DNA of 64,000 bases from Powellomyces hirtus (lineage: Eukaryota; Chytridiomycota; Chytridiomycetes; Spizellomycetales; Powellomycetaceae). The translations under genes were made by a program, and so were the position numbers. The stretch covers positions 496,001 to 560,000 of the forward strand of contig JAHLKG010000010.1 in assembly GCA_025526995.1 (NCBI GenBank). The letters run 5' to 3'. Numbering within the stretch: the first letter of the stretch is position 1; every line of letters starts with the position of its first letter. Positions 23,655 through 60,533 of the stretch are shown here, piece by piece. The notes below the pieces were generated by a model that saw only the letters and a program-made list of their open reading frames with translations, ran no database searches and was not told the DNA's origin.

Positions 23655-25048
23655 TCAGACAACAGACTTGATTACCAGGCCCAGCTTCTCACGCAGCTTT
23701 GCAAACTGGGGGCTGGGCAACGGCTTGGTGAGCAGATCGGCTGCCATGTCCTTGGTGGGGCAATACTCTAGGTCCACATGTTGATTGGCAATGGCCTCAC
23801 GGATGAAGTGGTGCCTGATGTCAATGTGCTTGGTCCTGGCATGGCTTGTGGGGTTTTTGGCAAGTGCTATGCAGCCCTGGTTGTCCTCATAGATTTTGCG
23901 AGGCAATCCCTGGGGATACCCTAGCTCAATCAGTACCTGCCTGAGCCAAATTGCCTCTTCGCAGGCCTGAGTGAGTGCCATGTACTCTGCCTCAGTGCTG
24001 GACAGAGCCACAGTGGGCTGGCGCTTGCTTTGCCAGGCTACAGGGCCTCCAAACATGAAGACAAAGCCAGTGGTGGAGCCCAGTCCAAGTCAGAGTACCC
24101 TTCCAAGTCTGGGGTTGTGCTGAAGGATCCTCCCAGGTTGAGAAGAGTGTCCAGGGTGCCTGACACATAGTGCAGAATGCGCTTTACAACTTGCCAGTGT
24201 CCAGGCCCAGGGTTGGCCATGAACTGGCTCACACTGCCTGCAGAAGCTGCGAGATCGAGCCTAGTGCCAACCATGCCAAAGATTAGGCTGCCAACAGCAC
24301 TCCGGTGGGGTTTGCTTGCCATCTGGGCCCTCTCCTCATCGCTTTGGGGCTCCATGGCCTTGGTCAAGCGAGGGGAGGTCTCCATTGGTGTGCTGACTGG
24401 TTTGCAGTTGTCCATGCCAAAGCTGGCAAGCATCTTCTGGAGATAGTGCTTCTGAGAGAGCCACAGGCGACGGCTGAGACGGTCCTTGGTAATCCCGACT
24501 CCGAGAAACTGGCCCAGAGTGCCCATGTATGTCATCTTGAAATGCTTGGAGAGCTCAGTCTTGATGTGGTTGATCTTCACCATGGATTTGCACGCCAGAA
24601 TCATGTCATCCCCATAGACCAGCAGATAGAGGGCGCTCTTGGGGTCTTGAGCATGCAGGGTGTAGATGCAATTGGCAGCATTGCTCTGCAAAAAGCCCAG
24701 CTGCTTGAGGCGGGCACCGAGAAGCTGATCCTCCTGCCCAGCAATGGCAAAGCCCTCAGGCTGCTCCATATAAATCTCTTCCTCAATGTTGGGGTTAAGG
24801 AATGCTGTCACAGCATCCATCTGCTCCAGTTCCATGTCCCCAATGGCTGCAATAGCCAGAACTGTCCTGACAGAGCAGAACTTGGCCACAGGAGTGAAGG
24901 TCTCCCCATAATCAACTCCCTCTCTTTGAGAGAAGCCTTTGGCAACCAGACAGGCCTTGTGGCGCTGGAGCAATCCATCTGCTGCCCGCTTGATCTTGAA
25001 GACCCACTTGCACTTGATGGACTGACAGCCTGCAGGCAAGGGAATGAG
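23655..25048 (-). pseudogene. pol: Copia H reverse transcriptase and RNase H
   Basis: The RT piece (25039-24038) has KCKWVFKIK, GFSQREGVDY, AVTAFLNPNIEEEIYMEQPEGF and YGDD in place of the usual YVDD. The LYGLKQSPR block is deleted between EDQLLG and LKQLGFLQ. RNase H follows after a frameshift (23655-24056): SKRQPTVALSSTEAEYMA, YEDNQGCIALAKNP and ADLLTKPLP, ending at the normal copia C-terminus. Non-functional because of the deletion and shift. Confidence 0.85.
25024..25048. repeat. Left copy of a 25-bp duplication flanking the inserted C LTR
   Basis: GAC(A/G)GCCTGCAGGCAAGG... occurs here and at 25561-25585 with one mismatch. It comes from the H pol target. Confidence 0.75.
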
Positions 25049-25549
25049 TGTTGAGATGTCTTGACATCTTCAAACAGGAACTCAGCATACCAGATAGGTT
25101 GCTAGCTTGTTGTCAAGACTTGCAGAGGGTCTGAAGGTGCTTCCCAAGATAGGGAAGGTCACCTGTAGTGTTTGCCAGAGTGTACTAGACAAGTAGAGTG
25201 TGTTGGACTGTTATTGTATTGGTTGGGGATGCCCAGAGGGCATCCTTTTATAACAATTTGGATCATAGTACATGTGTAGTGACAATCTAACTGTGCCCTA
25301 GCTTGGCCAAGACGGCCCTGGCCTGGCCTAGTATTGTTCCCAATCATAGGGATGTCTTTTTGCCTTTTCTTGGCGCTTATATCAGCACTCCAGACGTGCT
25401 TTAGGCCTTCTCAGGCCCTCTTCAGCTATTCTGGATTGTTCTAGACCATTCTGGATCATTCCAGACCATTCTAGACACAAGCGGATGTCCTCCCACATGT
25501 CCTGTGTGCTCTAAGTCCTCCCAGAGGCGCCCACAGGTAGATTCCAACA
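25049..25549 (-). repeat. Copia C LTR, minus orientation, inserted in copia H
   Basis: Plus-strand TGTTGAGATG to ATTCCAACA matches the C LTRs at 26557-27036 and 31245-31682 in reverse. Its upstream side carries an extra CTCCCACTCAC (25550-25560), the reverse complement of the C polypurine tract, so the inserted DNA was PPT plus LTR rather than a clean solo LTR. Confidence 0.85.
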
Positions 25550-25560
25550 CTCCCACTCAC

Positions 25561-26556
25561 GACGGCCTGCAGGCAAGGGAATGAGATCCCAGGTGTGGTT
25601 GGCATGCAGGCTGTCGAGTTCAGTTTGAGCTGCTTGCTCCCACTGCCTTGCATCAGGGGCTTTGAGAGCAGCCTTGAGGGAGGCAGGTTTGTCCTCTCCA
25701 GGTGCAATAGCCTCAGCCAGCAATGCAGTTGCCTCAGGCAGCAGACCAGTCCCTGACTTCCAGTACTCTAAAGGGGGCTGTGCGATGCGGGTTGAGCTCT
25801 GTTTCAGGCTCCTTGCTCATAGCCACCACCCAGCTTGTCTCCCTGCTCAGAGGCATCCTCCTGCACCTCCCCTTGCTGAGGAAGATCATCTTCGGCATCT
25901 GACAGTTCATCTGCCACTTCAGGGGAACCCTGGGCAGCAGGATCTGGCCTGCCAGGACCTCCAGTGAGGGACTCCTCATCAAACCGGACGTCTCTGCTCT
26001 CAATCAGCTTGCCAGCAGCCTCGTCCCAGAGTTGATAGCCCTTTGTAGTCTGGCTGTAGCCCAGGAAGATGCATCTGGTGGCATTTGGACCAAGCTTGTG
26101 CTGGTTCTGCTTGAGAATGGAAGCATAGACTGTGCAGCCAAAGATGCAAAGGTGCTGAATGTATGGACAAGTGCCTGTCCAGATCTGCCAGGGTGTGGCC
26201 TTGTTATGGAGAGCTCGAGTGGGGCTTCGGTTCCTCAGGTATGCAGCTGTCATGAGTGCTTCACCCCCAAACTTGTAGGGAAGGCCAGCTTGGAGCAGCA
26301 GGCATTGCGCCATCTCAACCAGCGTCCTGTTCATGTGCTCTGCAACACCATTCTGCTGAGGTGTGGCAACAGAACTGAGCTGGTGTCAGATGCCCAAAGA
26401 CGGAGTGAAGTTTGAGAACTCCTTGGACAGGTATCTTCACCAGGGTCAGACTGGAGGACCTTGAGTGAGCATCCTGTCTCTGTTGCACCCACTGCAGCAA
26501 AGATCTTGAAGCTGGCAAGTGTCTCTGCCTTGGTCTTGAGCAGATAGGGGACAATG
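25561..26556 (-). pseudogene. pol: Copia H integrase C-terminal part
   Basis: Minus-strand NRTLVEMAQCLLLQAGLP, AAYLRNRSPT, CTVYASI and the GYSQTTKGYQLWD block with SRDVRFDEE identify a copia integrase from the catalytic E region to the linker before RT. Upstream codons (toward 26556) are frame-shifted. The next part of H resumes at 31683 beyond copia C. Confidence 0.8.
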
Positions 26557-27203: not shown

Positions 27204-30200
27204 GATGGCTGGCGACTCTGACATTCGAGTGTCCATTGAGAGGTTCACTGGGGAGAACTTTCACCTTTGGAAGTTGAAAATGAAGATGCTGTTGATTGAG
27301 AAGAGACTTTGGGATGCCATTGACATCAAGGACGGCTCTGGAACTGCCAAGGCCACCAACACAGCATCAGACAACTGGATACGTCGAGATGAGAGAGCTC
27401 TGGCTCTGCTGATCATGTCTTTGAATGATGAGCAATTGACGATGTTCATGAGGCCGAATCTGCCCTTGAAGCATGGGAGAAGCTCAGGGAGGTGCATGAG
27501 AAGAAGGGGGTTGCCAACAGACACTTCCTGAGATGTCGGTTCCTCACTGTGACAATGGACCCGACTGATTCCATGACCATCCACATCAACAAGATCAAGA
27601 GGATGACCCAGGAACTTGCTGCCATTGGAGCTCCTGTTTCTGAGGAGGACCATGTGTTCGTTCTCCTTGCTCTCTTCCCTTCCTGAAGCCTTTGACACCC
27701 TTGTGATGACTCTGGAGTCGACCAGTGAGAAGCTGGACTTGGCTTTTGTGACATCCAGGCTGTTGCAGGAGGAAATGAGGTGTGCAGATGGAAAGAAGAA
27801 CTCTGGAAAGGCAGCAAAAGCCTTCTCCACACAAGCTGATGCCAAAGGGAATGCTCAGAGGACCAACAAGGCTGGGGGAAAGCCAGATTGGAAGAAGGAG
27901 GCGGTCTGTCACTACTGCAACAAGAAGGGCCACATCAAGAAGGAATGCCACAAGAGGGCAGCAGACGAGAGGAAGGGCCTAAACCAGGCCAACTCGATTC
28001 AACAGACACCTGGAGGCTTTGCTTTCACCACCATTGGGACTCAGATGCCATCCCTGACATCCAACACTTGGATTTTGGACTCAGGAGCCTCTCAGCATAT
28101 GACTGGCCGCAGAGAGCTGTTTGGGGACTATGAGAAGATGTCTCCTGTCGCCATTGAGATGGCAGACAATCACACATTGGAAGCTGTGGGGCATGGAATG
28201 CTTCACACATGGGTGATCAACACAGAGGGGAAGACAGTGCCCCTGCAAATCCAGAACTGCTGGAACGTCCCCAAGATGACCAAGAACCTCCTATCACTGG
28301 CTCGCCTTGCCAAAGCTGGAGCTTGTTTTGAAGTGGGACCACAGGCTGCTCGGATCATTGCAAAGGATGGGACAGCTTTCCTTGCCAAAGAGAACCAATT
28401 TGTCTACACATTCGAGACAACACATGGGCAGGCAAATGCTGGGATTGCCCACAACGTTGGAAGGGACACATCAAGTCAGGACTTGTCCCTATGGCATCAG
28501 AGACTCGGCAATTTAAATGTTGCAGACATTGAAAGGCTCACCAAGCTTGCCAAGGGCATTCAAACCAGTGGGAGCTTGAGCATTTGTGACACTTGTGCAC
28601 TCAGCAAAGCAAGCAGAGCGCCATTCCCAAAGGCACAGGCCTCCAGTGCGTCAGAGAAGCTGGGATTGATCCACACAGATGTCTGGGGACCAGTTGAACC
28701 ACCCACAATCACTCGATATTGCTAGTTCGTCACATTCATTGATGACAAGACGAGATATTTCCATGTTTGCCTTATGAAGACCAAGGGAGAAGTTGCTAGG
28801 CACTATCAGGAGCTGGAAGCAGGACTCGTCCCCCTACATGGAAAGCAGATCAAAGCTGTCAGATCCGACCCAGGAGGCGAGTACATGAGCAACTTGCTAA
28901 GGGACCACTTCAAGGAGAAGGGCACACAGCATCAGAGGAGTTCAGTAAATACTCCACAGCAAAATGGTGTTGCTGAACAAGCCAACCGTACCCTTGTGGA
29001 GATGGGGAGATGTTTGTTAAAGCAGGCAGGCTTGGACAAGCGTTTCTGGGGAGAAGCAATCATGACAGCAGTCTATCTGAGGGACAGATCTCCCACGGTT
29101 GCATGCCCCAAGATGCCTTATGAGATGTTCCATGGTATCCCACCATCTCTGGGACATTTGAGGACATTTGGATGCATTGCCTATGCCTACATTCAACCCA
29201 ACAAGCGCCAGAAGCTGGATGATACTGCCGTCAAGTGCATCATGCTGGGATATGGCTCCCACAGCAAGGAATACTGGCTTATGGATGTACACAGTAAAAA
29301 GATCCTGTTCTCCAGAAGTGTCAAATTCGATGAGAAGAGCTTCATTCCATCCCTCCAGTCTGCTCACGCGCCCCAAGTGCCTGCTGAGAGCCTGGAAGTG
29401 GGAATTGGGCCTGAAATGAGGCTGCAGGATGTCAGTGACGAGCTGCAGGATGTCAGTGACGACTCTGAGGACACAGACGTGTCAGAGGGAGAGGACAATG
29501 TGAGGGAATGGACCCCTGAGCCGTACTCTGACTATGAGAGTGCTGCAGAGCCTTCTCCAACCCCCAAAAGACTCAGGAAGCCACCAGGAGAGTGGTGGGA
29601 CGCTTCAAGCAATGCTGCAAATGTTGTTGCAGTTGCCTATGCTGTCTCCTTTGTCACAAACGAGCCCAAAAACAAGCTACAAGGAAAGCCAGACCATGCC
29701 AGATGCTTCACAATGGCGTCAGGCTGCTCAGGAAGAGATGGATGCTCTTGCCAAGAATGGGACATGTCAACTTGTGGATCTGCCAACGGGCAGAAAAGCT
29801 ATTGGATGCAAGTGGGTCTTCAAACGAAAGCTGAAGGACACAGGAGAGCTTCACAGACACAAAGCACGACTTGTTTCCAAAGGATTCTCTCAGAGAGAGG
29901 GATTGGACTATCAGGAGACATTCGCTCCCGTTGCCAAGTTTGGTCCCATGAGACTGCTGTTCTCCATCATTGCCACAGACGACTTGGAGGCACATCAGAT
30001 GGATGTGAAGACAGCATTCTTGCAAGGAGATCTGGACTATGTGATCTACATGCGCCAACTGGAGGGCTTTGAGGATTCCAAGCATCCAGGACGGGTCTGC
30101 AAGCTTGGGAGACCCCTCTACGGCCTCAAGCAATCAGCAAGGCGTTTCCACCACAAGATTGACCACAAACTGAAATCTATGGGCTTTGTGCAGTCGACGG

Positions 30201-31237
30201 CAGAGCCTTGCATGTACTACAGGAGCCAGAATGGGACTACAGAGTCTGATCTATGTGGATGACCTCATTGTGGCCTCATCAAGCAAGGAACAGCTGGGGG
30301 ATGTCAAGAAGGAGCTGAGGCGAGCTTTTGAGATGACAGACCTTGGAGAGCTGAATTACTTCCTTGGGATTCACATCAGATGGAGCAGAAGCACCCGCAC
30401 CATCTGGTTGTCTCAGAAGAAGTACGTTGAAGAGGTTGTTTTGAAATTCAACATGGGAGATGCCAAGGTTCATGCCACACCTATGGAACATGGACTGCAC
30501 CTCAGAAACAACATGGCACCTCAGAACGAGACGGACGAGCTGGAGATGAGCTCTGTGCCATACAGGAATGCAGTGGGCAGTTTGATCTTTGCCATGCTAG
30601 GAACATGCCCTGACATTGCTGCTGCAGTTGGAATTGTGTCCAAGTACCTTGCAAAGCCTGGAAAGGAGCATTGGAGTGCTGCCAAGCGGATCATCAGATA
30701 CCTGAAGGGCACAAGCAAACTTGGAATCCTTCTGGGAGGCAAAGAGAATGCCTCTGAGCCTAGGAACCTGGTTGGATACTCGGATTCCGACTATGCTGGA
30801 TGTTTCGACACAAGGAGATCAACCACTGGATTCATCTTCATGTTCAACGGGCCTATCACCTGGCAATCCAAGCGGCAGACCACTGTAGCTCTTTCAAGCA
30901 TGAAAGCAGAGTACATGGCACTAGCCCAGTGCACCAAGGAAGCTGTTTGGCTTCGTCTGCTTGCAAGGGAGCTCGGATTCAACAGGATGGACCCACAATA
31001 CTCTTTGAGGACAACCAGGGTGCCATTGCTCTTGCTAAGAACCCGACACTGCATGCCAGCACCAAACACATTGAAGTGAGGTACCACTTTATCAGAGAAG
31101 CACTAGGACGCTTGGAGATTGCATTAGAGTATCTCTCGACTCAGGACATGGTTGCAGACATCTTGACAAAACCACTGGCTAGGGATCAGTTCTTGAAACT
31201 GAGGGACGCCTGTGGGATCACAAAACATGTTTTGTGA
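27204..31237 (+). pseudogene. gag-pol: Copia C gag-pol with at least five disruptions
   Basis: Gag starts MAGDSDIRVSIERFTGENF; shifts occur near 27470 and 27680. The zinc knuckle CHYCNKKGHIKKEC and protease LDSGASQHMT follow, then the GAG-pre-integrase HHCC. TAG at 28723-28725 precedes the integrase core (FIDDKTRYF, RSDPGGEY, NGVAEQANRT). Shifts occur near 29650, 30240 and 31005. RT keeps YVDD (IYVDDLIVAS); RNase H ends ADILTKPLARDQF. The stop is at the edge of the polypurine tract, so no room exists for an extra 3' gene. Confidence 0.9.
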
Positions 31238-37405: not shown

Positions 37406-37645
37406 TGTTAGCACGTACAGACTCTGTCATTGAGTCACAACTGCGCCATCGCAGGGCGTATCACGCGATCACGTGAACCCACGTGATCAACTCCGATATA
37501 AGTAGTTTTCCTTCCATACTTAATATATCGGTGGGACTTTTCTCTTTTTCTCCAAATAGAGCGGGATTAAGTTACTTTGTTGTTCTGCTCAGTCAACTAC
37601 CCTAAAGCTTCCTCAACTATCTACTCAGATACTCTCAGACCAACA
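37406..37645 (+). repeat. Copia D1 5' LTR, 240 bp
   Basis: TGTTAGCACG to AGACCAACA. All D LTRs in the window have the same length. A TATAAG box-like motif lies near 37497, downstream of a palindromic double E-box. Confidence 0.93.
37467..37488. promoter_or_regulatory. Palindromic double E-box in the D LTR
   Basis: GATCACGTG-AACC-CACGTGATC is a perfect 9-bp inverted repeat with two CACGTG E-boxes. It is conserved in every D LTR (one copy has AGCC as spacer). CACGTG is the classic bHLH site (Pho4, Cbf1, MYC types), so it is a plausible activator or boundary element. Confidence 0.6.
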
Positions 37646-37660: not shown

Positions 37661-40600
37661 AATGGTAGGCAACGAAACGAGCCCCCGGTACACTCGTAGT
37701 ATGTTAAGACGCCTAACGGGTCGTCAGACCCCAGGGTCCAATACGCTACAACGAGCCGTAGAATGTGCAGCAAAGAAAAGCGCACAAGTGCCTGGTGAAC
37801 GGACATCACCAAGCAATGGAGGGAAATCTGCCGGTGACGATACACTGGCAGAGCCAACGTCTTTGAGTGTCGACGCCAACGAGAGCTACCACACATTGGA
37901 AGGGCGTACCCGAAACATCGACCGACACGATGGCAAGGTCGATACCCGTCCCCTATCAAGCAGTACGGATGATCGCAGAACGATCAACTACAGTATTCCA
38001 GCGGCATTCCCAAGTGGGGAATCAGCGAACACCTTGCATGTCCGCCCGCGTGAGGCGGACATGGATAGGATAGATCGGCTTGAGAATTCTCTAGCCCAAC
38101 TAACGGAAATGCTCCAAATGAAATGGCGCATGGATCAGGATGTGAACATCCCGGTCAACCCTCAGGTACGTACGGCGCAACGGCGTGTACGCACACCATC
38201 ACCCACTTGCAACGACGGGTTTGCTGCACCGTGGACAGAGAACAATCAGGAGATTGGAGCTCAACAGGAATACCAACGTTCTCCATTCGAACGCCGCCCT
38301 ACATCACCGACATCGAGCATACACAGCGTGACGACCAAAATCGTCGACAGTCGAGGTGCGAAAGCTTTCGTGGATGGAACGCTGAAAGATATTAGATCTT
38401 ACAACGGGGAAGCCAATATGGTCAAACTTCGAACGTTCATCGACAAGATTGAGACAGTTGTGAAGTACGAAATGGTTCCGCCCGAGTTTCTCGTGGATTT
38501 TGTGGCTACGAAACTCACAGGATGGGCATACACTTGGTGGCAGTCGCTGTCACCAAATAAAAGGAACGCAATTACGACGTGGCATGACTTTGAAGACGTT
38601 GATTCAGGAAGAACCAACACCAGTCTTAGGGTCCGCCCTCCTGGCGCGGTTTGCGCCACAAAACCACACTAGGGATTTGCTGCAGAAATTACGGGAATTG
38701 CGTCCCAAAGGCCGCATGGATGAGTACATCACTCAGTTCAACATGCTGGCACTTTCTCTGCCGAGAACACCGGATTACGTCCTTCAGGATTACTTCATCA
38801 ACGCGCTTACACCAGACCTTGCGGCCTTGGTTCAGGCTAATGAAGAAAACATAACTGATTTGAGCAGTTTACAGGCCGCTGCATCCAGGATCGCCGCCAA
38901 CATGGCTAAGAAACCTAGCGGGACCTCAACGGATACGCGACCAGGTGCCGCACACACTGACGCCTCTAAGAAACAAAAGGGTGGCAAGACCCATGGGGAG
39001 AAGTCAACGAACGGCAAGAAGGACAAGGAATCTACTCCATCAAACAAAGGCCAAACCCAAAAGTCGGGTTGTTGGGCCTGTGGAGACCCTAAACACCGAA
39101 CACAGGAGTGCGAAGTGTTAAAGAAGTTCAAATCCGAGTTGGAGAAGAACAAGACAAAGCAGTCGTCTGATGGTGCTGTTAGTACAAATGCTGTGGAAGC
39201 ATTACACGTCTGGGTCCGCCAAGAACAACCGTATGAAGCCCTCATCGACTCTGGTGCTACGGACCACATGACACCTCACAAAGCAACCTTGGATCACTCA
39301 ACCGTGTACAGTGATGTCAGAGCTGTTATGCTTGCTGACAAAACATCACTACCCTCTACAGTTCGAGGTACGGTACGAGTAGAAGTTAACGACTATCCGA
39401 ATCCGCTCGAGTTGGGCAGAGTCCTGCATATGCCAGGATTACGACGAGATCTCATATCGGTAGCGAAATGCAACGATCAAGGCGTTGACGTGCTCTTCAA
39501 ATCGAATGGAGATGTCATTTTCACGCGAGACGGCAAAGATATTGCCAAAGGCGTACGCCGCAACAACGCATATTACCTGCAAGGTACGCTGCTGTCTGAA
39601 AGTCTGTGCTCAGATTCAGAAGCATGCACTGTCGAAGTCTCTCCTACACTCGCTCATGCTCGTCTTGGACACGTTGGCAAACACGTCCTGGAGAAGATGG
39701 CATCGGTTACGGACGGTTGGTCCGTAGTGGGGGATCTAAATGACTTCAAAGATTGTGAAGCCTGCGTGCTAGGAAAAGCCGCTCGTCTTCCATTCTCCCT
39801 TGGAAATGTTGAAGCCAGGGAGATCTTGAGCTGATTCATTCAGACCTACAGGGACCATTTCGTATCCCTGGTTATGAAGGATCACGCTATTCACTGGAGT
39901 TCATTGAACACACATCCAGATACGTGACTGTTTTCCCTATTCCTTCAAAGGACTCAGCAGTCATACTCGACAAGTTTCTCATCTACAAGGCTTGGATTGA
40001 CAAACAGACTGACCGACAAATCAAGATTCTACGTACGGATCGAGGCACCGAATACTTTGGCGAGGCTCTAGAGTACCTATTGGAAAATGGTATCACTCAT
40101 CAAAAGTCCGCGGCCTATTCGAGTCACCAAAACGGGATTGCCGAACGATGGCATCGCACAGCGCTGGACAGGGTCCGCGCCACCTTTGCAGATACAAAAC
40201 TACCCCAAAGATTCTGGCCTGCTCTACTGGTAGCGGCTGGATACATCTATTCCCTCACATACAACCGCATCAACAAGAAGACGCCGCATGAAATACTGTT
40301 TGGCCGGCGTCCTGATGTCGCCCATCTTCGGCGTATCGGTTGCGTGGCGTATTCCGTTCTAACAAGCAAAGGACAAGATAAAATGGGAAATCAAGCGAAG
40401 AAGGCTTACTTGGTAGGCTATGCTCAACCCACAGGTACCAAGGGGTATCTAGTATGGGATCTGATCACTGACAAGGTCAAAGTGTCACGAGACGTGATCT
40501 TCAAAGAAGACTTGGGACTCGAACCCAAATATCAGCAGGACCCAGCCCATCTTGACCTTCTAGATGAGGAGAGTCAGGAGGATGACGTCGAATACACTGT

Positions 40601-43181
40601 GGAGGCGATTATCGACAAGCACCGCAGTAAGGTGCACACAAAAGAGTACTTGGTTAAGTGGGAGGGATATCAAGAACCTACGTGGGAGTCCCGACTTTCA
40701 CTACTCGATACTACCGCATTGGATGACTGGGAAAATCGAGTCGCCGCGTACGATGTCGGCACACGACGAAATGACCCCATCACTGCATACGCCGCCCGCG
40801 CGCGGACTCAAGCAACGATCAACGAAGACGCCATGACATGGAAGCACGCGATGAAAACCCCTCAGAAGGAGGAATTTCTCAAGGCTGCACGCATCGAGTA
40901 CCAATCCCTGGTCGACAACGGCACATGGGAGCTCACCAAGCGTCCACGTAACAAGCGCGTGATCGGCACAACATGGGTTTTTCGAACGAAGGTCAATCCC
41001 GATGGCACCTTTACCAAGTTCAAAGCCAGAGCAGTGGCTCAAGGCTTCTCTCAACAACCCGGTTGCGACTTTGGTGATACATACTCACCGACGCTACCAT
41101 TCACAGCGCTACGCCTCTTCTTGGCGTATTGTGTTCAGCACGGGCTGGACATCCACAGTATGGACGCTGTCACCGCCTTCCTTAACAGTGATATTGATAA
41201 GGATATCTATATCGAGCAGTTTGAGGGATTCGAAGATCCGGATCACCCCAAAGGCAATTGGGTCCTGAAGCTACTGAAAGCTCTCTATGGCCTGAAGCAA
41301 TCACCTCTTCTTTGGTATGAGACCTTGAAGACTGCACTGTTGAAGCTCGGCTACGAAGCGGTTTCCGTATGCCCGTGTATCTTTTTCAAGTATGCGACAG
41401 ATGACCGTACACCTCCGTCGAACGACAATTTGGTCCTTATTCTCGTCTTCGTCAACGACCTGCTTATTGCAGCAAAGGATCCGGAGATTCTGGCGAACAG
41501 CAAAATGGATTTACATTCGAAGTTCAAGTTTACAGAACAAGGTCGCGTCACTGGTCACCTTGGTCTCGTCTACAAGTATGACTTCGAGTCTCCGGTTCGT
41601 ACCCTCGAAATCTCAAATGTCAAGTACATCGACGACGCTCTTGAACAATTCGGCATGAGCGACTGCCATCCTGTCTCCACTCCGTACGCCGTGTCAGCGC
41701 GTAACAAACAACCGGAGGATTCGACCCCATTCACGAATCTGAAAATGTATCAGGAAGCAGTGGGGGTCCTCACTTGGGCCTCCATTACATGGCGATGGGA
41801 TATTGCCACTGCAGTCGGTTACGTTGCGCGCCGCGTTGCCGCACCTACCAACTCCGACTGGAACAACGTTAAACGCATTTTCCGCTATTTGAAGGGTACT
41901 CGCGGTTATGCCCTCAAGTTTACATCCGAAAGAAATGATCCGCGTGGCTTACGCGTATTCACGGATGCGGATTATGCAGGAGAACTCACCGACCGGACGT
42001 CCACTACAGGTATTTTGGCCCTTTACAGTGGGTTTCCTGTTCTGTGGAAAAGCAGCAAGCAGAAGTGCACCGCCCAAAGTACAACCGAAGCGGAGTATAT
42101 AGCTGCCAGTACCGGCCACAACGAAGCCAAATGGCTACGCCAACTCTTGGCGGAAGTTTTGGGACCTCAACCGGATTACAAATCTCGACCGGTCCCTCTC
42201 CATGTCAATAATCAGAGGGCCGGGGCCTTGATTCAGTCTAAAGCTATCAACCAACGCACCAAACACATCGACGTTTGGTACCATGCTATACGCGATTCGT
42301 TCGCGAAGCAAATTATCAAAATCATCGACACCAATACGGACGATCAACTGGCGGACATCTTTACAAAGCCTTTTCCCACTGTGAAACATAAGGACACTGT
42401 CCTGAGGATTACGAATGGGACTCTTATATTTGATGAAAGGATACGCAATGAGGGCGCGTCTACGGAAGCACACCGAGCTCAAGTGTTACTCGCTGAATGT
42501 CAGGAGAACTACTCACAACACTGGCTTACCTTGGCTACTACACCGCAATTGCGGAACCCGAAGCAATGCCTCCCAAGGAGGATGGGCCTGCCCCTCCTCC
42601 ATCATCCTCATCGCTTGAGGGTGAGCGTCGGCTTGAAGAACCCGATGGTCCCTCCAACTCCTCGGCTGCCCCCTCCTCCTCCTCCTCTTCCTCATCATTA
42701 TATGGAGCTTCACGCTCCAGGATGTCCCACATCCTTTTCACCTCCGCTACAGACTTCTTGTCCGCAGCCCTCTTCTTCGCCTGGGCCGCATCCTTGCCCT
42801 TCCCAACCGCCAGCTTCCGGCTCCGCCGGTCCTCTAGTATGGACCTCAGTCCATCAAGCGTCCCGGTCGCCCGTGCGCGACCCAGAGGCGTACCAGACCT
42901 CGCCCGGTCCTTCACCCGGTCTTTCGCCTGCTCAATGTGACGTTCCAGGACCCCTTGACGGTCCTTGCGGTGGAACTGTCGGGCATGCGCTGCCGACATC
43001 GTTCGAATCTCCGCTCGGGACAACCCCGCAGCGGGTGCGCCTCCCTGTGGCGCAGAGGGCACCACTGACGACGGCACAGCAGGAGCTGTGGTCGTCGCAG
43101 GAGCAGTTACCGGCGGTCCCGTCTTTCTCGCCGTCTGCTTCGCTTTGCCCGAACCTGACAACTACACTGGCACATAGTTAG
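37650..43181 (+). pseudogene. gag-pol: Copia D1 gag-pol with chromodomain, two frameshifts
   Basis: Three pieces joined by an extra G near 38630 and a lost base near 39826 (both by comparison with D2). Order: gag with knuckle CWACGDPKHRTQEC, protease LIDSGATDHMT, integrase HHCC and DDE (RTDRGTEYF, QNGIAERW), GTKGYLVWD block, chromodomain (YTVEAII...YLVKWEGY...TWES, about 40585-40745), RT, RNase H (ADIFTKPFP). The RT motif reads FVND instead of FVDD (41448-41459). The frame stays open about 230 codons past RNase H into the antisense gene; I regard that tail as non-coding in sense. Confidence 0.9.
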
Positions 43182-43227
43182 AGCTTACGCCTCATTTGCG
43201 CGGATCTCATAGACGTACCCTAGCCAT
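42538..43227 (-). CDS. Antisense spliced gene of copia D1: H3-tail-like basic/acidic protein
   Basis: Exon 1 is 43227-43219 (ATG GCT AGG), the intron 43218-43162 (57 nt, GTACGT, branch CTCTAAC, TGTAG), exon 2 43161-42538; 210 residues. The N-terminus, MARLSGSGKAKQTARKTG, contains the histone H3 stretch KQTARK. An Ala/Pro/Thr/Val linker (residues about 19-50), a long charged helical region (RQFHRKDRQGVLERHIEQAKDRV; SVAEVKRMWDILERE), then an acidic tail with a Glu run and a Ser/Asp/Gly end follow. No cysteine cluster. Without exon 1 the frame is closed by TAG right before exon 2 and the first ATG would be residue 58. Function unknown; nuclear or chromatin role is inferred only from composition. 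Confidence 0.7.
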
Positions 43228-43343: not shown

Positions 43344-43583
43344 TGTTAGCACGTACAGACTCTGTCATCGAGTCACAACTGCGCCATCGCAGGGCGTATC
43401 ACGCGATCACGTGAACCCACGTGATCAACTCCGATATAAGTAGTTTTCCTTCCATACTTACTATATCGGTGGGACTTTTCTCTTTTTCTCCAAATAGAGC
43501 GGGATTAAGTTACTTTGTTGTTCTGCTCAGTCAACTACCCTAAAGCTTCCTCAACTATCTACTCAGATACTCTCAGACCAACA
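43344..43583 (+). repeat. Copia D1 3' LTR, 240 bp
   Basis: TGTTAGCACG to AGACCAACA, preceded by the purine tract GAGTGGGGG and followed by the ATACT target copy. Confidence 0.93.
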
Positions 43584-48532: not shown

Positions 48533-48772
48533 TGTTAGCACGTACAGACTCTGTCATCGAGTCACAACTGCGCCATCGCAGGGCATATTACGCGATCACG
48601 TGAACCCACGTGATCAACTCCGATATAAGTAGTTTTCCTTCCATACTTAATATATCGGTGGGGACTTTTCTCTTTTTCTCCAGTAGAGCGGGATTAAGAT
48701 ACTTCGTTGTTCTGCTCAGCCAACTACCCTAAAGCTTCCTCAACTATCTACTCAGATACTCTCAGACCAACA
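48533..48772 (+). repeat. Copia D2 5' LTR
   Basis: 240 bp, TGTTAGCACG to AGACCAACA, with the palindromic double E-box. Nearly identical to the LTR at 54470-54709. Confidence 0.93.
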
Positions 48773-48787
48773 GGTTATGAGCCCTGA
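48773..48787 (+). other. Primer binding site of D2 overlapping the gag ATG
   Basis: GGTTATGAGCCCTGA, anticodon-arm type. The gag-pol ATG is at 48777 within it. Confidence 0.75.
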
Positions 48788-51700
48788 AATGGTAGGCAAC
48801 GAAACGAGCCCCCGGTACACTCGTAGTATGTTAAGACGCCTAACGGGTCGGCAGACCCCAGGGTCCAATACGCTACAACGAGCCGTAGAACGTGCCGCTA
48901 AAAAGAGCGCACGAGTGCCTGGTGAATGGACATCACCAGACAATGGAGGGAAATCTGCCGGTAACGATACACTGGCAGAGCCAACGCCTTTGAGCGTCGA
49001 CACCAACGAGGGCGACGACGCATTGGGAGGGCGTACCCGAAACATCGACCGACGCAATGGCAAGGTCGATACCCGTCCCCTATCAAGCAGTACAGATGAT
49101 CACAGAACGATCAACTACAGTACTCCAGCGGCATTCCCAAGTGGGGAATCAGCGAACACCGTGCATTTCCGCCCGCGTGAGGCGGACGTGGATAGGATAG
49201 ATAGGCTTGAGAATTCTCTAGCCCAACTAACGGAAATGCTCCAAATGAAATGGCGCATGGATCAGGATGTGAACATCCCGGTCAACCCTCAGGTACGTAC
49301 GGCGCAACGGCGCGTACGCACACCATCATCCACTCGCAACGACGGGTTCGCTGCACCGTGGACAGAGTACAATCAGGAGATTGGAGCTCAACAGGACTAC
49401 CAACGTTCTCCATTCGAACGCCGCCCTACATCACCGACATCGAGCATACACAGCGTGACGACCAAAATTGTCAACAGTCGAGGTGCGAAGGCTTTCGTGG
49501 ATGGAACGCTGAAAGATATTGGATCTTACAACGGGGAAGCCAATATGGTCAAACTTCGAACGTTCATCGACAAGATTGAGACAGTTGTGAAGTACAAAAT
49601 GGTTCCGCCCGAGTTTCTCGTGGATTTTGTGGCTACGAAACTCACAGGATGGGCATACACTTGGTGGCAGTCGCTGTCACCAAATAAAAGGAACGCAATT
49701 ACGACGTGGCATGACTTTGAAGACGTTGATTCAGGAAGAACCAACACCGGTCTTAGGTCCGCCCTTCTGGCGCGGTTCGCGCCACGAAACCACACTAGGG
49801 ATTCGCTGCAGAAACTACGGGAATTGCGTCCCAAAGGCCGCATGGATGAGTACATCACTCAGTTTAACATGCTGGCATTTTCTCTGCCGAAGACACCGGA
49901 TTACGTCCTTCAGGATTACTTCATCAACGCGCTAACACCAGACCTTGCGGCCTTGGTTCAGGCTAATGAAGAAAACATAACTGATTTGAGCAGTTTACAG
50001 GCCGCTGCATCCAGGATCGCCGCCAACATGGCTAAGAAACCTAGCGGGACCACAACGGATATGCGACCAGGTGCCGCACACACTGACGCCTCTAAGAAAC
50101 AAAAGGGTGGCAAGAACCACGGGGAGAAGTCAGCGAACGGCAAGAAGGACAAGGAATCTACTCCATCAAACAAAGGCCAAACCCAAAAGTCGGGTTGTTG
50201 GGCCTGTGGAGACCCTAAACACCGAACACAGGAGTGCGAAGTGTTAAAGAAGTTCAAATCCGAGATGGAGAAGAACAAGACAAAGCAGTCGTCTGATGGT
50301 GCTGTTAGCACAAATGCTGTGGAAGCATTACACGTCTGGGTCCGCCAAGAACAACCGTATGAAGCCCTCATCGACTCTGGCGCTACGGACCACATGACAC
50401 CTCACAAAGCGACCTTAGATCACTCAACCGTGTACAGTGATGTCAGAGCTGTTATGCTTGCTGACAAAACATCACTACCCTCTACAGTTCGAGGTACGGT
50501 ACGAGTAGAAGTAAACGACTATCCGAATCCGCTCGAGTTGGGCGGAGTCCTGCATGTGCCAGGATTACGACGAGATCTCGTATCGGTAGCGAAATGCAAC
50601 GATCAAGGCGTTGACGTGCTCTTCAAGTCGAATGGAGACGTCATTTTCACGCGAGACGGCAAAGAAATCGCCAAAGGCGTACGCCGCAACAACGCGTATT
50701 ACCTGCAAGGTACGCTGCTGTCTGAAAGTCTATGGTCAGATTCAGAAGCATGCACTGTTGAAGTCTCTCCTACACTCGCTCATGCTCGTCTTGGACACGT
50801 TGGCAAACACGTCCTGGAGAAGATGGCATCGGTTACGGACGGTTGGTCCGTAGTGGGGGATCTAAGCGACTTCAAAGATTGTGAAGCCTGCGTGTTAGGA
50901 AAAGCCGCTCGTCTTCCATTCTCCCTTGGTAACGCTGAAGCCAGGGAAATCTGTGAGCTGATTCATTCAGACCTACAGGGACCATTTCGTCTCCCTGGTT
51001 ACGAAGGATCACGCTATTCGCTGGAGTTCATTGAACACACATCCAGATACGTGACTGTTTTCCCTATTCCTTCAAAGGATTCGGCAGTCATACTCGACAA
51101 GTTTCTCATCTACAAGGCTTGGATTGAGAAACAGACTGACCGACAAATCAAGATTCTACGTACGGATCGAGGCACCAAATACTTTGGCGAGGTTCTAGAG
51201 TACCTATTGGAAAATGGTATCACTCATCAGAAGTCCGCGGCCTATTCGAGTCAGCAAAACGGAATTGCCGAACGATGGCATCACACGGCGCTGGACAGGG
51301 TCCGCGCCACCTTTGCGGATACGAAACTACCTCGAAGATTCTGGCCTGCTTTACTGGTAGCAGCTGGATACATCTATTCCCTCACGTACAACCGCATCAA
51401 CAAGAAGACGCCGCATGAAATACTGTTTGGCCGGCGTCCTGATGTCGCCCATCTCCGGCGTATCGGTTGCGTGGCGTATTCCGTCCTAACGAGCAAAGGA
51501 CATGATAAAATGGGGAATCGAGCGAAGAAGGCTTACTTGGTAGGCTATGCTCAACCCTCAGGTACCAAGGGGTATCTGGTTTGGGATCCTATCACTGACA
51601 AGGTCGAAGTGTCACGAGACGTGATCTTCAAAGAAGACTTGGGACTCGTACCCAAATATCAGCAGGATCCAGCACATCTTGACCTCCTAGATGAGGTGGG

Positions 51701-53357
51701 TCAGGAGGATGACGTCGAATACACCGTGGAGGCAATTATCGACGAGCGCCGCGGTAAGGCGCACACGAAAGAGTACTTGGTTAAGTGGGAGGGATATCAA
51801 GAACCTACGTGGGAGTCCCGACTTTCACTACTCGATACTACCGCATTGGATGACTGGGAGAATCAAGTCGCCGCATACGATGTCGGCACACGACGAAATG
51901 ACCCCATTGCTGCATACGCCGCCCGCGCGCGGACTCAAGCAACGATCAACGAAGACGCCATGACATGGAAGCAAGCGATGAAAACCCCTCAGAAGGAGGA
52001 ATTTCTTAAGGCTGCACGCATCGAGTACCAATCCCTGGTCGACAACGGCACATGGGAGCTCACCAAGCGTCCACGTAACAAGCGCGTGATCGGCACAACA
52101 TGGGTTTTTCGAACGAAGGTCAATCCCAATGGCACCTTTAACAAGTTCAAAGCCAGAGCAGTGGCTCAAGGCTTCTCTCAACAACCCGGTCGCGACTTTG
52201 GTGATACATACTCACCGACGCTACCATTCACAGCGCTACACCTCTTCTTGACGTATTGTGTTCAGCACGGGCTGGACATCCACAGTATGGACGCTGTCAC
52301 CGCCTTCCTTAACAGTGATATTGATAAGGATATCTATATCGAGCAGTTTGAGGGATTCGAAGATCCGGATCACCCCAAAGGCGATTGGGTCCTGAAGCTA
52401 CTGAAAGCTCTCTACGGCGTGAAGCAATCACCTCTTCTTTGGTATGAGACCTTGAAGACTGCACTGTTGAAGCTCGGCTACGAAGCGGTTTCCGTATGCC
52501 CGTGTATCTTTTTCAAGTACGCGACAGACGACCGTACACCTCCGTCGAACGACAACTTGGTCCTTATTATGGTCTTTGTCAACGACCTGCTGATTGCAGC
52601 AAAGGATCAGGAGATTCTGGCGAACAGCAAAATGGAGCTACATTCGAAGTTCAAGTTTACAGAACAAGGTCGCATCACTAGTCACCTTGGTCTCGTCTAC
52701 AAGTATGACTTTGAGTCTCCGGTTCGTACCCTCGAAATCTCAAATGTCAAGTACATCGACGACGCTCTTGAACAATTCGGCATGAGCGACTGCCATCCTG
52801 TCTCCAGTCCGTACGCCATGTCAGCGCGTAACAAACAACCGGAGGATTCGACCCCATTCACGAATCTGAAAATGTATCAGGAAGCAGTGGGGGTCCTCAC
52901 TTGGGCCTCCATTACATGGCGATGGGATATCGCCACTGCAGTCGGTTACGTTGCGCGCCACGTCGCCGCACCTACCAACTCCGACTGGAACAACGTTAAA
53001 CGCATTTTCCGCTATTTGAAGGGTACTCGCGGTTATGCCCTCAAGTTTACATCCGAAAGAAATGATCCGCGTGGCTTACGCGTATTCACGGATGCGGATT
53101 ATGCAGGAGAACTCACCGACCGGACGTCCACTACAGGTATTTTGGCCCTTTACAATGGGTTTCCTGTTCTGTGGAAAAGCAGCAAGCAGAAGTGCACCGC
53201 ACAAAGTACGACCGAAGCGGAGTATATAGCTGCCAGCACGGCCACAACGAAGCCAAATGGCTACGCCAACTCTTGGCGGAAGTTTTGGGACCTCAACCGG
53301 ATTACAAATCTCCACCGGTCCCTCTCCATGTTGATAATCAGAGCGCTGGGGCCTTGA
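48777..53357 (+). CDS. gag-pol: Copia D2 gag-pol polyprotein with integrase chromodomain, frameshifted in RNase H
   Basis: One 1526-codon frame, the longest in the window. Gag with knuckle CWACGDPKHRTQEC (residues about 474-487); protease LIDSGATDHMT (about 531); integrase HARLGH...CEAC finger (about 667-715), catalytic D (HSDLQGP), D (RTDRGTKYF) and E (NGIAERW); GTKGYLVWD block; chromodomain at about 980-1033 with cage residues Tyr (EYTVE), Trp (VKW) and Tyr (EGY); RT with KAFLNSD-type blocks and FVND at 52575-52586 (FVDD in D3); RNase H DADYAGELTDR. A one-base loss near 53239 shifts the last part, which resumes as GHNEAKWLRQLL in the next frame. RT is probably inactive (Asp to Asn). Confidence 0.92.
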   Translation: MSPEMVGNETSPRYTRSMLRRLTGRQTPGSNTLQRAVERAAKKSARVPGEWTSPDNGGKSAGNDTLAEPTPLSVDTNEGDDALGGRTRNIDRRNGKVDTRPLSSSTDDHRTINYSTPAAFPSGESANTVHFRPREADVDRIDRLENSLAQLTEMLQMKWRMDQDVNIPVNPQVRTAQRRVRTPSSTRNDGFAAPWTEYNQEIGAQQDYQRSPFERRPTSPTSSIHSVTTKIVNSRGAKAFVDGTLKDIGSYNGEANMVKLRTFIDKIETVVKYKMVPPEFLVDFVATKLTGWAYTWWQSLSPNKRNAITTWHDFEDVDSGRTNTGLRSALLARFAPRNHTRDSLQKLRELRPKGRMDEYITQFNMLAFSLPKTPDYVLQDYFINALTPDLAALVQANEENITDLSSLQAAASRIAANMAKKPSGTTTDMRPGAAHTDASKKQKGGKNHGEKSANGKKDKESTPSNKGQTQKSGCWACGDPKHRTQECEVLKKFKSEMEKNKTKQSSDGAVSTNAVEALHVWVRQEQPYEALIDSGATDHMTPHKATLDHSTVYSDVRAVMLADKTSLPSTVRGTVRVEVNDYPNPLELGGVLHVPGLRRDLVSVAKCNDQGVDVLFKSNGDVIFTRDGKEIAKGVRRNNAYYLQGTLLSESLWSDSEACTVEVSPTLAHARLGHVGKHVLEKMASVTDGWSVVGDLSDFKDCEACVLGKAARLPFSLGNAEAREICELIHSDLQGPFRLPGYEGSRYSLEFIEHTSRYVTVFPIPSKDSAVILDKFLIYKAWIEKQTDRQIKILRTDRGTKYFGEVLEYLLENGITHQKSAAYSSQQNGIAERWHHTALDRVRATFADTKLPRRFWPALLVAAGYIYSLTYNRINKKTPHEILFGRRPDVAHLRRIGCVAYSVLTSKGHDKMGNRAKKAYLVGYAQPSGTKGYLVWDPITDKVEVSRDVIFKEDLGLVPKYQQDPAHLDLLDEVGQEDDVEYTVEAIIDERRGKAHTKEYLVKWEGYQEPTWESRLSLLDTTALDDWENQVAAYDVGTRRNDPIAAYAARARTQATINEDAMTWKQAMKTPQKEEFLKAARIEYQSLVDNGTWELTKRPRNKRVIGTTWVFRTKVNPNGTFNKFKARAVAQGFSQQPGRDFGDTYSPTLPFTALHLFLTYCVQHGLDIHSMDAVTAFLNSDIDKDIYIEQFEGFEDPDHPKGDWVLKLLKALYGVKQSPLLWYETLKTALLKLGYEAVSVCPCIFFKYATDDRTPPSNDNLVLIMVFVNDLLIAAKDQEILANSKMELHSKFKFTEQGRITSHLGLVYKYDFESPVRTLEISNVKYIDDALEQFGMSDCHPVSSPYAMSARNKQPEDSTPFTNLKMYQEAVGVLTWASITWRWDIATAVGYVARHVAAPTNSDWNNVKRIFRYLKGTRGYALKFTSERNDPRGLRVFTDADYAGELTDRTSTTGILALYNGFPVLWKSSKQKCTAQSTTEAEYIAASTATTKPNGYANSWRKFWDLNRITNLHRSLSMLIIRALGP

Positions 53358-54061
53358 TTCAGTCCAAGGCTATCAACCAACGCACCAAACACATCGACGT
53401 TCGGTACCACGCTATATGCGATTCGTTCGCGAAGCAAATTATCGAAATCATCGACACCAATACGGACGATCAACTGGCGGACATCTTTACGAAGCCTTTT
53501 CCCACTGTGAAACATAAGGACACTGTCCTCAGGATTACGAATGGGACTCATATATTTGATGAAAGGATACGCAATGAGGGCGCGTCTACGGAAGCACACC
53601 GAGCTCAAGTGTTACTCGCTGAATGTCAGGAGAACTACTCACAACACTGGCTTACCTTGGCTACTACACCGCAATTGCGGAACCCGAAGCAATGCCTCCC
53701 AAGGAGAATGGGCCTGCCCCTCCTCCATCATCTTCATCGCTTGAGGGTGAGCGTCGGCTTGAAGAACCCGATGGTCCCTCCAACTCCTCGGCTGCCCCCT
53801 CCTCCTCCTCCTCTTCCTCATCATTATATGGAGCTTCACGCTCCAGGATGTCCCACATCCTTTTCACCTCCGCTACAGACTTCTTGTCCGCAGCCCTCTT
53901 CTTCGCCTGGGCCGCATCCTTGCCCTTCCCAACCGCCAGCTTCCGGCTCCGCCGGTCCTCTAGTATGGACCTCAGTCCATCAAGCGTCCCGGTCGCCCGT
54001 GCGCGACCCAGAGGCGTACCAGACCTCGCCTGGTCTTTCACCCGGTCTTTCGCCTGCTTGA
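53358..54061 (+). pseudogene. pol: Remainder of D2 RNase H after the frameshift
   Basis: Frame-shifted continuation: KAINQRTKHIDVRYHAIC and ADIFTKPFPTVKHKDTV, then an open proline-rich tail to a stop at 54061. In D1 and D3 that tail is longer. I do not think the tail is translated as pol, because substitutions favour the opposite strand. Confidence 0.7.
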
Positions 54062-54353
54062 TGTGACGTTCAAGGACCCCTTGACGGTCCTTGCGGTGGA
54101 ACTGTCGGGCATGCGCTGCCGACATCGTTCGAATCTCCGCTCGGGACAACCCCGCAGCGGGTGCGCCTCCCTGTGGCGCAGAGGGCACCACTGACGACGG
54201 CACAGCAGGCGCTGTGGTCGTCGCAGGAGCGGTTACCGGCGGTCCTGTCTTTCTTGCCGTCTGCTTCGCTTTGCCCGAACCTGACAACTACACCGGCACA
54301 TAGTTAGAGCTTACGCCTCATTTGCGCGGATCTCATAGACGTACCCTAGCCAT
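53664..54353 (-). CDS. Antisense spliced gene of copia D2 (H3-tail-like protein)
   Basis: Exon 1 54353-54345, intron 54344-54288 (57 nt), exon 2 54287-53664; 210 residues. Donor, branch site and acceptor are as in D1. Versus D1, I count 11 substitutions in exon 2: 8 silent and 3 replacing (Ser-Phe, Arg-Gln, Glu-Lys) in this frame, but 9 replacing or stop-forming in the sense frame. KQTARKT is unchanged. This copy shows that the sense frame can be closed (TGA at 54059) while the antisense one stays open. Confidence 0.7.
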
Positions 54354-59600: not shown

Positions 59601-60487
59601 GCGATTCGTTCGCGCAGCAAATTATTGAAATCATCGACACCAATACGGACGATCAACTGGCGGACATCTTTACGAAGCCTTTCCCAACTGTGAAACATAA
59701 AGACACTGTCCTGAGGATTACAAATGGGACTCATATATTTGATGAGAGAATACGCAATGAGGGCGCGCCTACGGAAGCACACCGAGCTCAAGTGTTACTT
59801 GCTGAATGTCAGAAGAATTACTCACAACACTGGCTTACCTTGGCATCTACACCGCAATTGCGGAACCCGAAGCAATGCCCCCCAAGGAGGATGGGCCTGC
59901 CCCTCCTCCATCATCCTCATCGCTTGAGGGTGAGCGTCGGCTTGGAGAACCCGGTGGTCCCTCCAACTCCTCGGCTGCCCCCTCTTCCTCCTCTTCCTCA
60001 TCATTATATGGAGCTTCACGCTCCAGGATGTCCCACATCCTTTTCACCTCCGCTACAGACTTCTTGTCCGCAGCCCTTTTCTTTGCCTGGGCCGCATCCT
60101 TGCCCTTCCCAACCGCCAGCTTCCGGCTCCGCCGGTCCTCTAGTATGGACCTCAGTCCATCAAGCGTCCCGGTCGCCCGTGCGCGACCCAGAGGCGTACC
60201 AGACCTCGACCGGTCTTTCACCCGGTCTTTGGCCTGCTCGATGTGACGTTCAAGGACACCTTGACGGTCCTTGCGGTGGAACTGTCGGGCATGCGCCGCC
60301 GACATCGTTCGAATCTCCGCTCGGGACAACCCCGCAGCGGGTGCGCCTCCCTGTGGCGCAGAGGGCACCACTGACGACGGCACAGCAGGAGCTGTGGTCG
60401 TCGCCGGAGCGGTTACCGGCGGTCCCGTCTTTCTTGCCGTCTGCTTCGCTTTGCCCGAACCTGACAACTACATCGGCACATAGTTAG
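56633..60487 (+). pseudogene. pol: Pol of D3 (integrase-chromodomain-RT-RNase H) with one in-frame stop
   Basis: Continuous with D2 pol from VMLADKTSLPS. TAG at 57458-57460 replaces the Trp of ERWH in the integrase near the catalytic Glu. The chromodomain (YAVEAII...YLVKWDGY...TWES, about 57900-58060) keeps its cage residues. RT has FVDD at 58757-58768, the only D copy here with both aspartates. RNase H is in frame to ADIFTKPFP and beyond. Confidence 0.9.
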
Positions 60488-60533
60488 AGCTTACGCCTCA
60501 TTTGCGCGGATCTCATAGACGTACCCTAGCCAT
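59847..60533 (-). CDS. Antisense spliced gene of copia D3 (H3-tail-like protein)
   Basis: Exon 1 60533-60525, intron 60524-60468 (57 nt), exon 2 60467-59847; 209 residues, one Glu fewer in the acidic run. The replacing differences from D1 that I see are few (Ala-Ser near residue 89 and two Ser-to-Pro in the tail), while most base changes are silent in this frame. The N-terminal KQTARKT is identical. It stays open although D3 gag-pol has two stops and an inversion. Confidence 0.7.

Follow-up and report, generated by a model that had tools for sequence, protein, structure and literature searches.

We describe a gene on the opposite strand of an LTR (long terminal repeat) retrotransposon of the chytrid Powellomyces hirtus. 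The element, here called family D, is present in three copies (D1, D2 and D3) in the window, by which we mean the whole 64,000-nucleotide stretch of contig JAHLKG010000010.1 that was analysed (positions 496,001 to 560,000); positions are those of the window, and features are collected in Table 1. Family D is very probably a Copia-type LTR retrotransposon with a real opposite-strand accessory gene, whose expression and role we infer; the gene is placed where conserved pol has ended and the 3′ LTR has not yet begun.

The antisense gene and its element

In each of the three copies, ATGGCTAGG and then a 57-nt phase-0 intron (GTACGT...CTAAC...TAG) stand ahead of a long open antisense frame. The original prediction had placed the frames (207, 207 and 206 codons) exactly where we find them, and the intron sequence that it proposed is present in all three. 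Its hand count of substitutions was reproduced exactly: of the 11 differences between D1 and D2, 8 leave the antisense protein unchanged and 9 alter or stop the sense frame. Between D1 and D3 there are 16 differences, 13 antisense-silent and 16 altering the sense frame. The sole gap among the three antisense frames is 3 nt, the whole-codon change that had been claimed. The gag-pol genes had also been called broken, which holds for the window copies, where the open reading frame list gives gag and pol in pieces, but not for the family as a whole: open gag-pol frames of 1873–1874 codons, with no stop within the match, are present elsewhere in the genome.

The D1 pol frame matches the Pfam families rve, SH3_retrovirus, Chromo and RVT_2, and family D is thus a Copia type with a chromodomain integrase. 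The order of rve before RVT_2 (E 5e-54) is the Ty1/Copia arrangement, and the Chromo domain (E 1.7e-7) follows the integrase, as in the chromoviruses of the Ty3/Gypsy group. RVT_2 was the sole reverse-transcriptase family in the Pfam scan, which gave no Gypsy-type reverse transcriptase. The window also holds remnants of other Copia elements, and in four of their frames no Chromo domain was found at E ≤ 0.01. The gag of the family, as read in D2 (48687–53357), matches Ty3_capsid and Retrotrans_gag (Pfam) and is joined to the Copia-type chromodomain pol; to our knowledge, such a mixture of a Ty3-type gag with a chromodomain-bearing Copia pol is unusual among Copia elements.

The gene accompanies the element throughout the genome (29.26 Mb, 60 contigs). 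A DNA search yielded 114 candidates, of which 40 were scored, every one of them matching across the entire 690 bp; at the protein level, 127 matched pieces merged to ~114 places. A further search with RNase H scored 150 of 530 candidates, and we examined the 103 matches (at least 84% identity) that extended at least to residue 155 of the query, which has 160 residues. The antisense gene adjoins 99 of these 103 family-D pol ends, in 91 cases at a distance of exactly 101 bp, and is a fixed part of family D. In the next Copia family (~41–45% identity) no antisense relative was found at E ≤ 0.001. Antisense-gene copies are spaced 12,070 bp apart on genome contig C28 (93947, 106017 and 118087) and ~12,200 bp apart on C26 (173176, 185376 and 197575), a regular 12-kb spacing that looks like tandem duplication of blocks holding family D.

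Table 1. Features of family D and other Copia remnants in the window.
Feature	Position	Strand	Remarks
D1 exon 1	43219..43227	-	ATG GCT AGG, Met-Ala-Arg
D1 intron	43162..43218	-	57 nt, phase 0; GTACGT donor, CTAAC branch site, TAG acceptor
D1 branch site CTAAC	43177..43181	-	Complement GTTAG contains the sense gag-pol stop codon
D1 exon 2	42538..43161	-	207 codons and TAG stop; open in all three window copies
D1 H3-like word KQTARK	43123..43140	-	Exon-2 residues 8-13, then T14
D1 basic core	42715..43017	-	Exon-2 residues 49-149, three predicted helices
D1 HRKDRQxVLERH signature	42937..42972	-	Residues 64-75, common to distant relatives
D1 acidic disordered tail	42541..42708	-	Residues 152-207, weak selection
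D2 antisense gene	53664..54353	-	ATG begins 54353; exon 2 53664-54287, 207 codons
D3 antisense gene	59847..60533	-	ATG begins 60533; exon 2 59847-60467, 206 codons
D1 sense pol frame	39813..43181	+	Continues across antisense gene; Chromo ~40593-40740, RVT_2 ~40917-41687 (Pfam)
D1 3′ LTR	43344..43583	+	240 bp; 5′ LTR 37406-37645, 99.2% identity between the two
Two CACGTG palindromes	43408..43423		In LTR, between sense TATA-like ATATAAG (43434-43440) and antisense gene
Other Copia remnants, no Chromo	24038-25069, 25804-26385	-	Pfam, E ≤ 0.01
Other Copia remnants, no Chromo	28726-30072, 29504-30262	+	Pfam, E ≤ 0.01

Evidence for purifying selection on the antisense protein

Ninety loci were obtained, and merging those fetched twice or identical to one another, flanks included, left 64 distinct aligned copies, to which counts for the antisense gene refer unless otherwise stated. 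The two frames overlap such that antisense position 3 is sense position 2, and sense position 3 is antisense position 2. Sites at which at least three copies carry a variant number 31, 38 and 66 at antisense positions 1, 2 and 3, respectively; variants found in two copies number 12, 18 and 20, and singletons are flat (51, 53 and 45). When changes were placed on a tree of the copies, internal branches carried 40, 44 and 124 at the three positions (124 of 208 at the third, binomial p 1e-14) and terminal branches 126, 178 and 257; with CpG sites excluded, the internal-branch counts were 24, 19 and 63. For a matched null, each change was moved randomly to sites with the same base and CpG state in 1000 simulations. 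Internal branches held 120 silent antisense changes against 70.6 under this null (z 7.7; 0 of 1000 simulations), and 44 silent sense changes against 67.9.

Pairwise codon tests, made on 59 copies after omission of five that were frameshifted or strongly rearranged (L012, L014, L023, L081 and L082), agree with these counts. For pairs diverging by <2, 2–5, 5–8 and >8%, the ratio of nonsynonymous to synonymous differences per site (pN/pS) was 0.22, 0.33, 0.35 and 0.48 in the antisense frame, and 1.34, 1.08, 1.02 and 1.05 in the sense frame. In pol, which served as the positive control (51 of 54 copies), the corresponding values were 0.43 (11 pairs), 0.23, 0.26 and 0.67, and 293 of its 454 internal-branch changes fall at sense third positions; the method therefore detects known constraint on the correct strand. 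The substitution pattern thus indicates purifying selection on the antisense protein, of the same order as that on pol. The original prediction had proposed such selection from the window copies by themselves, and it is borne out by the larger sample, in which a dN/dS-type comparison of both frames places the antisense ratio well away from 1.

The same changes indicate that pol continues into a largely unconstrained tail overlapping the whole of exon 2, since sense stops are near their matched null (internal branches, 4 observed and 4.2 expected; terminal branches, 7 and 10.1), the amino acids drift freely, and strong sense constraint reaches ~42430 and fades beyond. Between 42430 and 42537, internal changes are without phase (16, 17 and 20), and terminal sense-silent changes number 41 against 27.5 expected.

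Evidence for an intron

The spliceosomal signals seen in the window copies are conserved across the family. All 64 copies keep the exon 1 ATG, and 58 encode Met-Ala-Arg, with GCC, GCG, GCA and AGA as silent variants; the third codon is otherwise AAG (3 copies), AGT (2) or a TAG stop (1). The donor GT is present in 63 copies, the branch site CTAAY in 64 (CTAAC 51, CTAAT 13) and the acceptor AG in 64 (TAG 62, GAG 2). Intron length, at 57 nt in 46 copies, 58 in 15, 56 in 2 and 61 in 1, varies in 18 of the 64, whereas exon 2 length is divisible by three in 59. Read unspliced from the ATG, the gene meets a stop after 6 codons in 61 copies (range 2–11), and a stop stands directly 5′ of exon 2 in 62. 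Codons 1–55, which precede or include the first methionine codon of exon 2 in most copies, evolve as protein, with 38 of 57 internal-branch changes at antisense third positions (p 3e-7). The retained ATG, GT, branch site and AG, the stops met without splicing, and the selection on codons 1–55 together make a strong case, from the genome, for the joining of the two exons. If ATG, GT, AG and no fewer than 198 open codons are required, a loose criterion, the spliced gene is intact in 47 of the copies.

The P. hirtus gene model P0002 meets exon 2 at the acceptor, through either a predicted splice or a joint in the DNA. This model fuses a fragment of DNA polymerase B to exon 2, of which it includes 80-odd residues from the acceptor onward, and its polymerase portion has no match in this genome.

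The predicted protein and its H3-like word

AlphaFold2 predicts exon-2 residues 1–48 to be disordered, residues 49–149 to form three helices, and the remainder to be an acidic disordered tail. Confidence (predicted local distance difference test, pLDDT) is 78–89 over residues 71–150, 54–62 over 41–70 and ~40 in the acidic tail. The disordered N-terminal tail with exon 1 carries a charge of ~+4.5, the core ~+14 and the acidic tail ~-13. A profile search of 5.8 billion sequences returned two distant relatives, P0003 (ENA set, 225 aa; E 0.007) and P0004 (JGI set, 209 aa; E 0.02), both of which match the antisense product over its basic core, share with it the HRKDRQEVLERH signature, and have a similar core followed by an acidic stretch. 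The two align with each other at 47% over 117 residues, and their scores against the window protein exceed those of shuffles by 12–16 standard deviations. When P0003 was searched back into the genome, all 106 matches (106/106) fell in family-D antisense genes.

Near the start of exon 2 lies the word KQTARK, which is identical to residues 4–9 of histone H3. A degenerate search found 87 KQTARK sites in the genome, 82 of them in family-D antisense genes, against 5 for the reversed pattern; of the other 5 KQTARK sites, 3 are followed within 200 bp by a histone-fold match in the same orientation. The remaining 2, at C2:1880451 and C5:731589, are outside family D and away from histone-fold matches. 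Among the copies, K8 and R12 are invariant (64/64), as is T14 (63/63), and K13 is kept in 63 of 64, A11 in 62 and T10 in 61; Q9 varies in 7. Under CpG-aware rates, residues 6–14 have 11 replacements against 36.8 expected (ratio 0.30) and ARKT 3 against 15.0 (0.20), while the rest of the tail (residues 15–54) has 83 against 144.8 (0.57). The motif window ranks 27th of 199 by the same rates, and so is clearly constrained, yet not the most constrained stretch.

The family-D element also brings a potential reader of such a word, as the D1 chromodomain matches the solved chromodomains of CDY/CDYL, Polycomb and HP1. By analogy with HP1, the three aromatic cage residues (Y, W and Y) are presumably present in it. 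Taken together, the H3-like word and the chromodomain suggest a link of the antisense protein to chromatin.

There is an even chance, in our estimation, that the product is a nucleic-acid-binding accessory factor, in which the H3-like word is a plain basic motif for nuclear localisation or binding and the resemblance to H3 is coincidental. The opposed charges of core and acidic tail are consistent with such a factor, as is the rank of the motif window behind 26 others. When the protein was shuffled 20,000 times, 64 of the shuffles matched the H3 tail at six or more residues (45 of 20,000 for the tail alone), and the likeness was noticed after the fact. P0003 and P0004, known here as protein sequences, differ from the family-D product in being without KQTARK, though P0004 begins mid-frame. 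Against coincidence stands the stronger constraint on the KQTARK region than on the remaining tail, strongest in ARKT. An H3-identical word around a lysine, kept by selection, is what a histone mimic would have. It is nonetheless a rather doubtful proposal that the element encodes, alongside its integrase chromodomain, an antisense spliced protein whose tail KQTARKT, resembling the surroundings of H3 lysine 9 (H3K9), serves as a mimic of histone H3. Were it so, a host H3K9 methyltransferase could methylate the KQTARKT decoy, and the methylated tail would be recognized by the chromodomain of the integrase or by HP1-type readers of the host, which would tether or assemble the integration complex, or draw silencing factors off the element.

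Alternative explanations for the antisense frame

Three other explanations concern the gene itself rather than the function of its product. The gene might be unspliced, with translation beginning within exon 2, either at Met55 (product of ~153 residues) or at a codon other than AUG. Codon 55 is the first in-frame methionine of exon 2 in 51 of the 64 copies, and a gene caller applied to a metagenome contig yielded P0001, which starts at the Met55 equivalent. However, selection on codons 1–55 as protein, the retention of every exon 1 and intron signal, and the stop immediately ahead of exon 2 all point the other way, and we regard an unspliced gene as improbable. It is more improbable still that the antisense RNA alone is functional, for example through small RNAs restraining the element, with the protein as a by-product. 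Antisense transcripts of plant elements are discussed as silencing triggers in the available portions of one report (PMC7264820), but a function of the RNA gives no reason to expect that selection should follow the codon phase of the antisense frame, where silent codon changes are tolerated. Least credible of all is that the frame is open merely through conservation of the overlapping gag-pol tail: most copies do have a sense frame that crosses the region, and in 50 of 64 it stops at 43181, in the branch-site complement, but phase counts, the sense pN/pS above 1 and the matched null refute this explanation at the protein level, with sense replacements exceeding their null (160 against 135 on internal branches) and just 44 of 208 internal changes at sense third positions.

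Some of our observations do weigh against a spliced antisense gene maintained for its protein. Antisense stops are mildly depleted relative to the matched null (2 against 5.6 expected on internal branches, 12 against 16.7 on terminal ones), and the antisense frame is stop-free in 51 of 64 copies, the sense frame in 56. In the acidic tail (codons 155–207), pN/pS is 0.73–0.90 for pairs more than 2% apart and 0.44 for closer pairs. The interior of the intron (43168–43212) has 0.31 changes per site, compared with 0.33 in the exon and 0.67 in short flanks, more conservation than neutrality would call for in an intron. The genome yielded no intronless retrocopy within 3 mismatches, no AATAAA-like signal was found within 400 nt past the antisense stop, and neither a Pfam family above the cut-off nor a convincing fold match indicated the function of the product. 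The evidence for splicing comes from the genomic sequence. The first antisense stop is commonest at codon 53 (Arg, CGA; 43003–43005), in 6 of 64 copies, and fits CpG decay.

Comparison with known systems

Antisense accessory genes are themselves already known, from plant Gypsy elements and from the fungal element Boty. The plant elements Grande and RIRE2 both belong to Gypsy. As far as the available portions of the reports describe them, the antisense open reading frames (aORFs) of maize Grande (gene23), rice RIRE2 and Silene Retand (ORF4) resemble the family-D gene in their place and orientation, their presence in most copies, a conservation like that of other element proteins, and in being without known function (PMC7264820, PMC11963269). 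The Grande antisense product is described there as nuclear (PMC7264820, PMC11963269); Retand is a Gypsy element (PMC11963269), the products of which are said to carry TRP28 (PF04195). Family D differs from these in the lack of a Pfam match and in that the gene is inside a gag-pol run-on. In the terms of an aORF-3R, the gene lies antisense between conserved pol and the 3′ LTR and overlaps the largely unconstrained pol run-on; it stands beside nearly every pol end examined (99/103), and its pN/pS is 0.33–0.35 against 0.23–0.26 for pol in the 2–8% bins.

A fungal precedent, in the available text, is brtn (Zhao et al. 2011), which Boty of Botrytis (B. cinerea) and Sclerotinia carries in antisense orientation, downstream of pol and ahead of the 3′ LTR (PMC7264820, PMC8365987, PMC4227169). 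Like family D, Boty is a fungal LTR element with an extra antisense gene in that position, and it is described as having a CHROMO domain (PMC4227169). The novelty that the original prediction saw in the gene must be narrowed accordingly, as an antisense gene of a fungal LTR element is known; what stands is its distinctness from brtn, namely the Copia-type pol, the nesting within the gag-pol frame and the H3-like motif. By description, brtn is assigned to BcGypsy1 (PMC8365987), whereas family D has the RVT_2 of a Copia-type pol. A survey of fungal LTR elements speaks, in its available portions, of chromodomains for Gypsy and names none for Copia (PMC3248453), and the literature on antisense, Copia, chytrid and retrotransposon, to the extent of the texts available, gave nothing beyond a paper on introns.

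Beyond LTR retrotransposons, the antisense transcripts of human T-cell leukaemia virus (HTLV) are reported, in the portions of the source available, to be spliced, the major HTLV-1 form having its ATG in exon 1; the product, HBZ, is made antisense from the 3′ LTR, has ~206 residues and regulates the provirus (PMC3185765). The family-D gene is like HBZ in its size, and its genomic signals and the selection on it support a similar layout, with the ATG in a putative first exon ahead of a probable intron. It differs in that exon 1 lies just outside the LTR and that no bZIP or other Pfam domain was found in the product above the cut-off. For the H3-like word, the nearest parallel is in G9a and GLP, where, in the available text, HP1 binds short H3-like words once they carry methylation, and is blocked when the threonine that follows is phosphorylated (PMC9768651). 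The family-D word is likewise short and H3-like, with a lysine followed by a threonine; methylation and HP1 binding are demonstrated for G9a/GLP, while the family-D word is recognized by its letters and the selection on them.

Proposed expression and role

Transcription of the gene would start from an antisense promoter in or beside the 3′ LTR. The 28 bases at the LTR start (GAGTGGGGG-TGTTAGCACG...) are identical in 45 of 54 copies, and the CACGTG palindrome occurs twice in the LTR in 46 of 54 copies and three times in 2 more; these palindromes are a possible two-way promoter. The host spliceosome would then remove the intron from the antisense RNA, giving a basic protein of ~210 residues in which a core of three helices connects a flexible H3-like tail to an acidic one. 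The intron would outlast retrotransposition, as the sense genomic RNA, from which the element is reverse transcribed, carries no splice signals there, and the antisense RNA alone would be recognized as containing an intron. Most likely, we infer, the product works in the nucleus as an accessory to its own element, with chromatin or the integration complex as its target.

If the antisense RNA alone is spliced, an intron exempt from removal by reverse transcription would be a neat means for a retroelement to retain one. Antisense genes are on record for only a few LTR elements, and those are without known functions. With about a hundred copies of the family-D gene, selection can be measured codon by codon, and with exon 2 wholly within the gag-pol frame, it offers a clean test case of opposite-strand overlap with constraint on just one of the two frames. 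As for the H3-like word, its pairing with a chromodomain integrase makes retrotransposon mimicry of a host chromatin mark a concrete question of binding.

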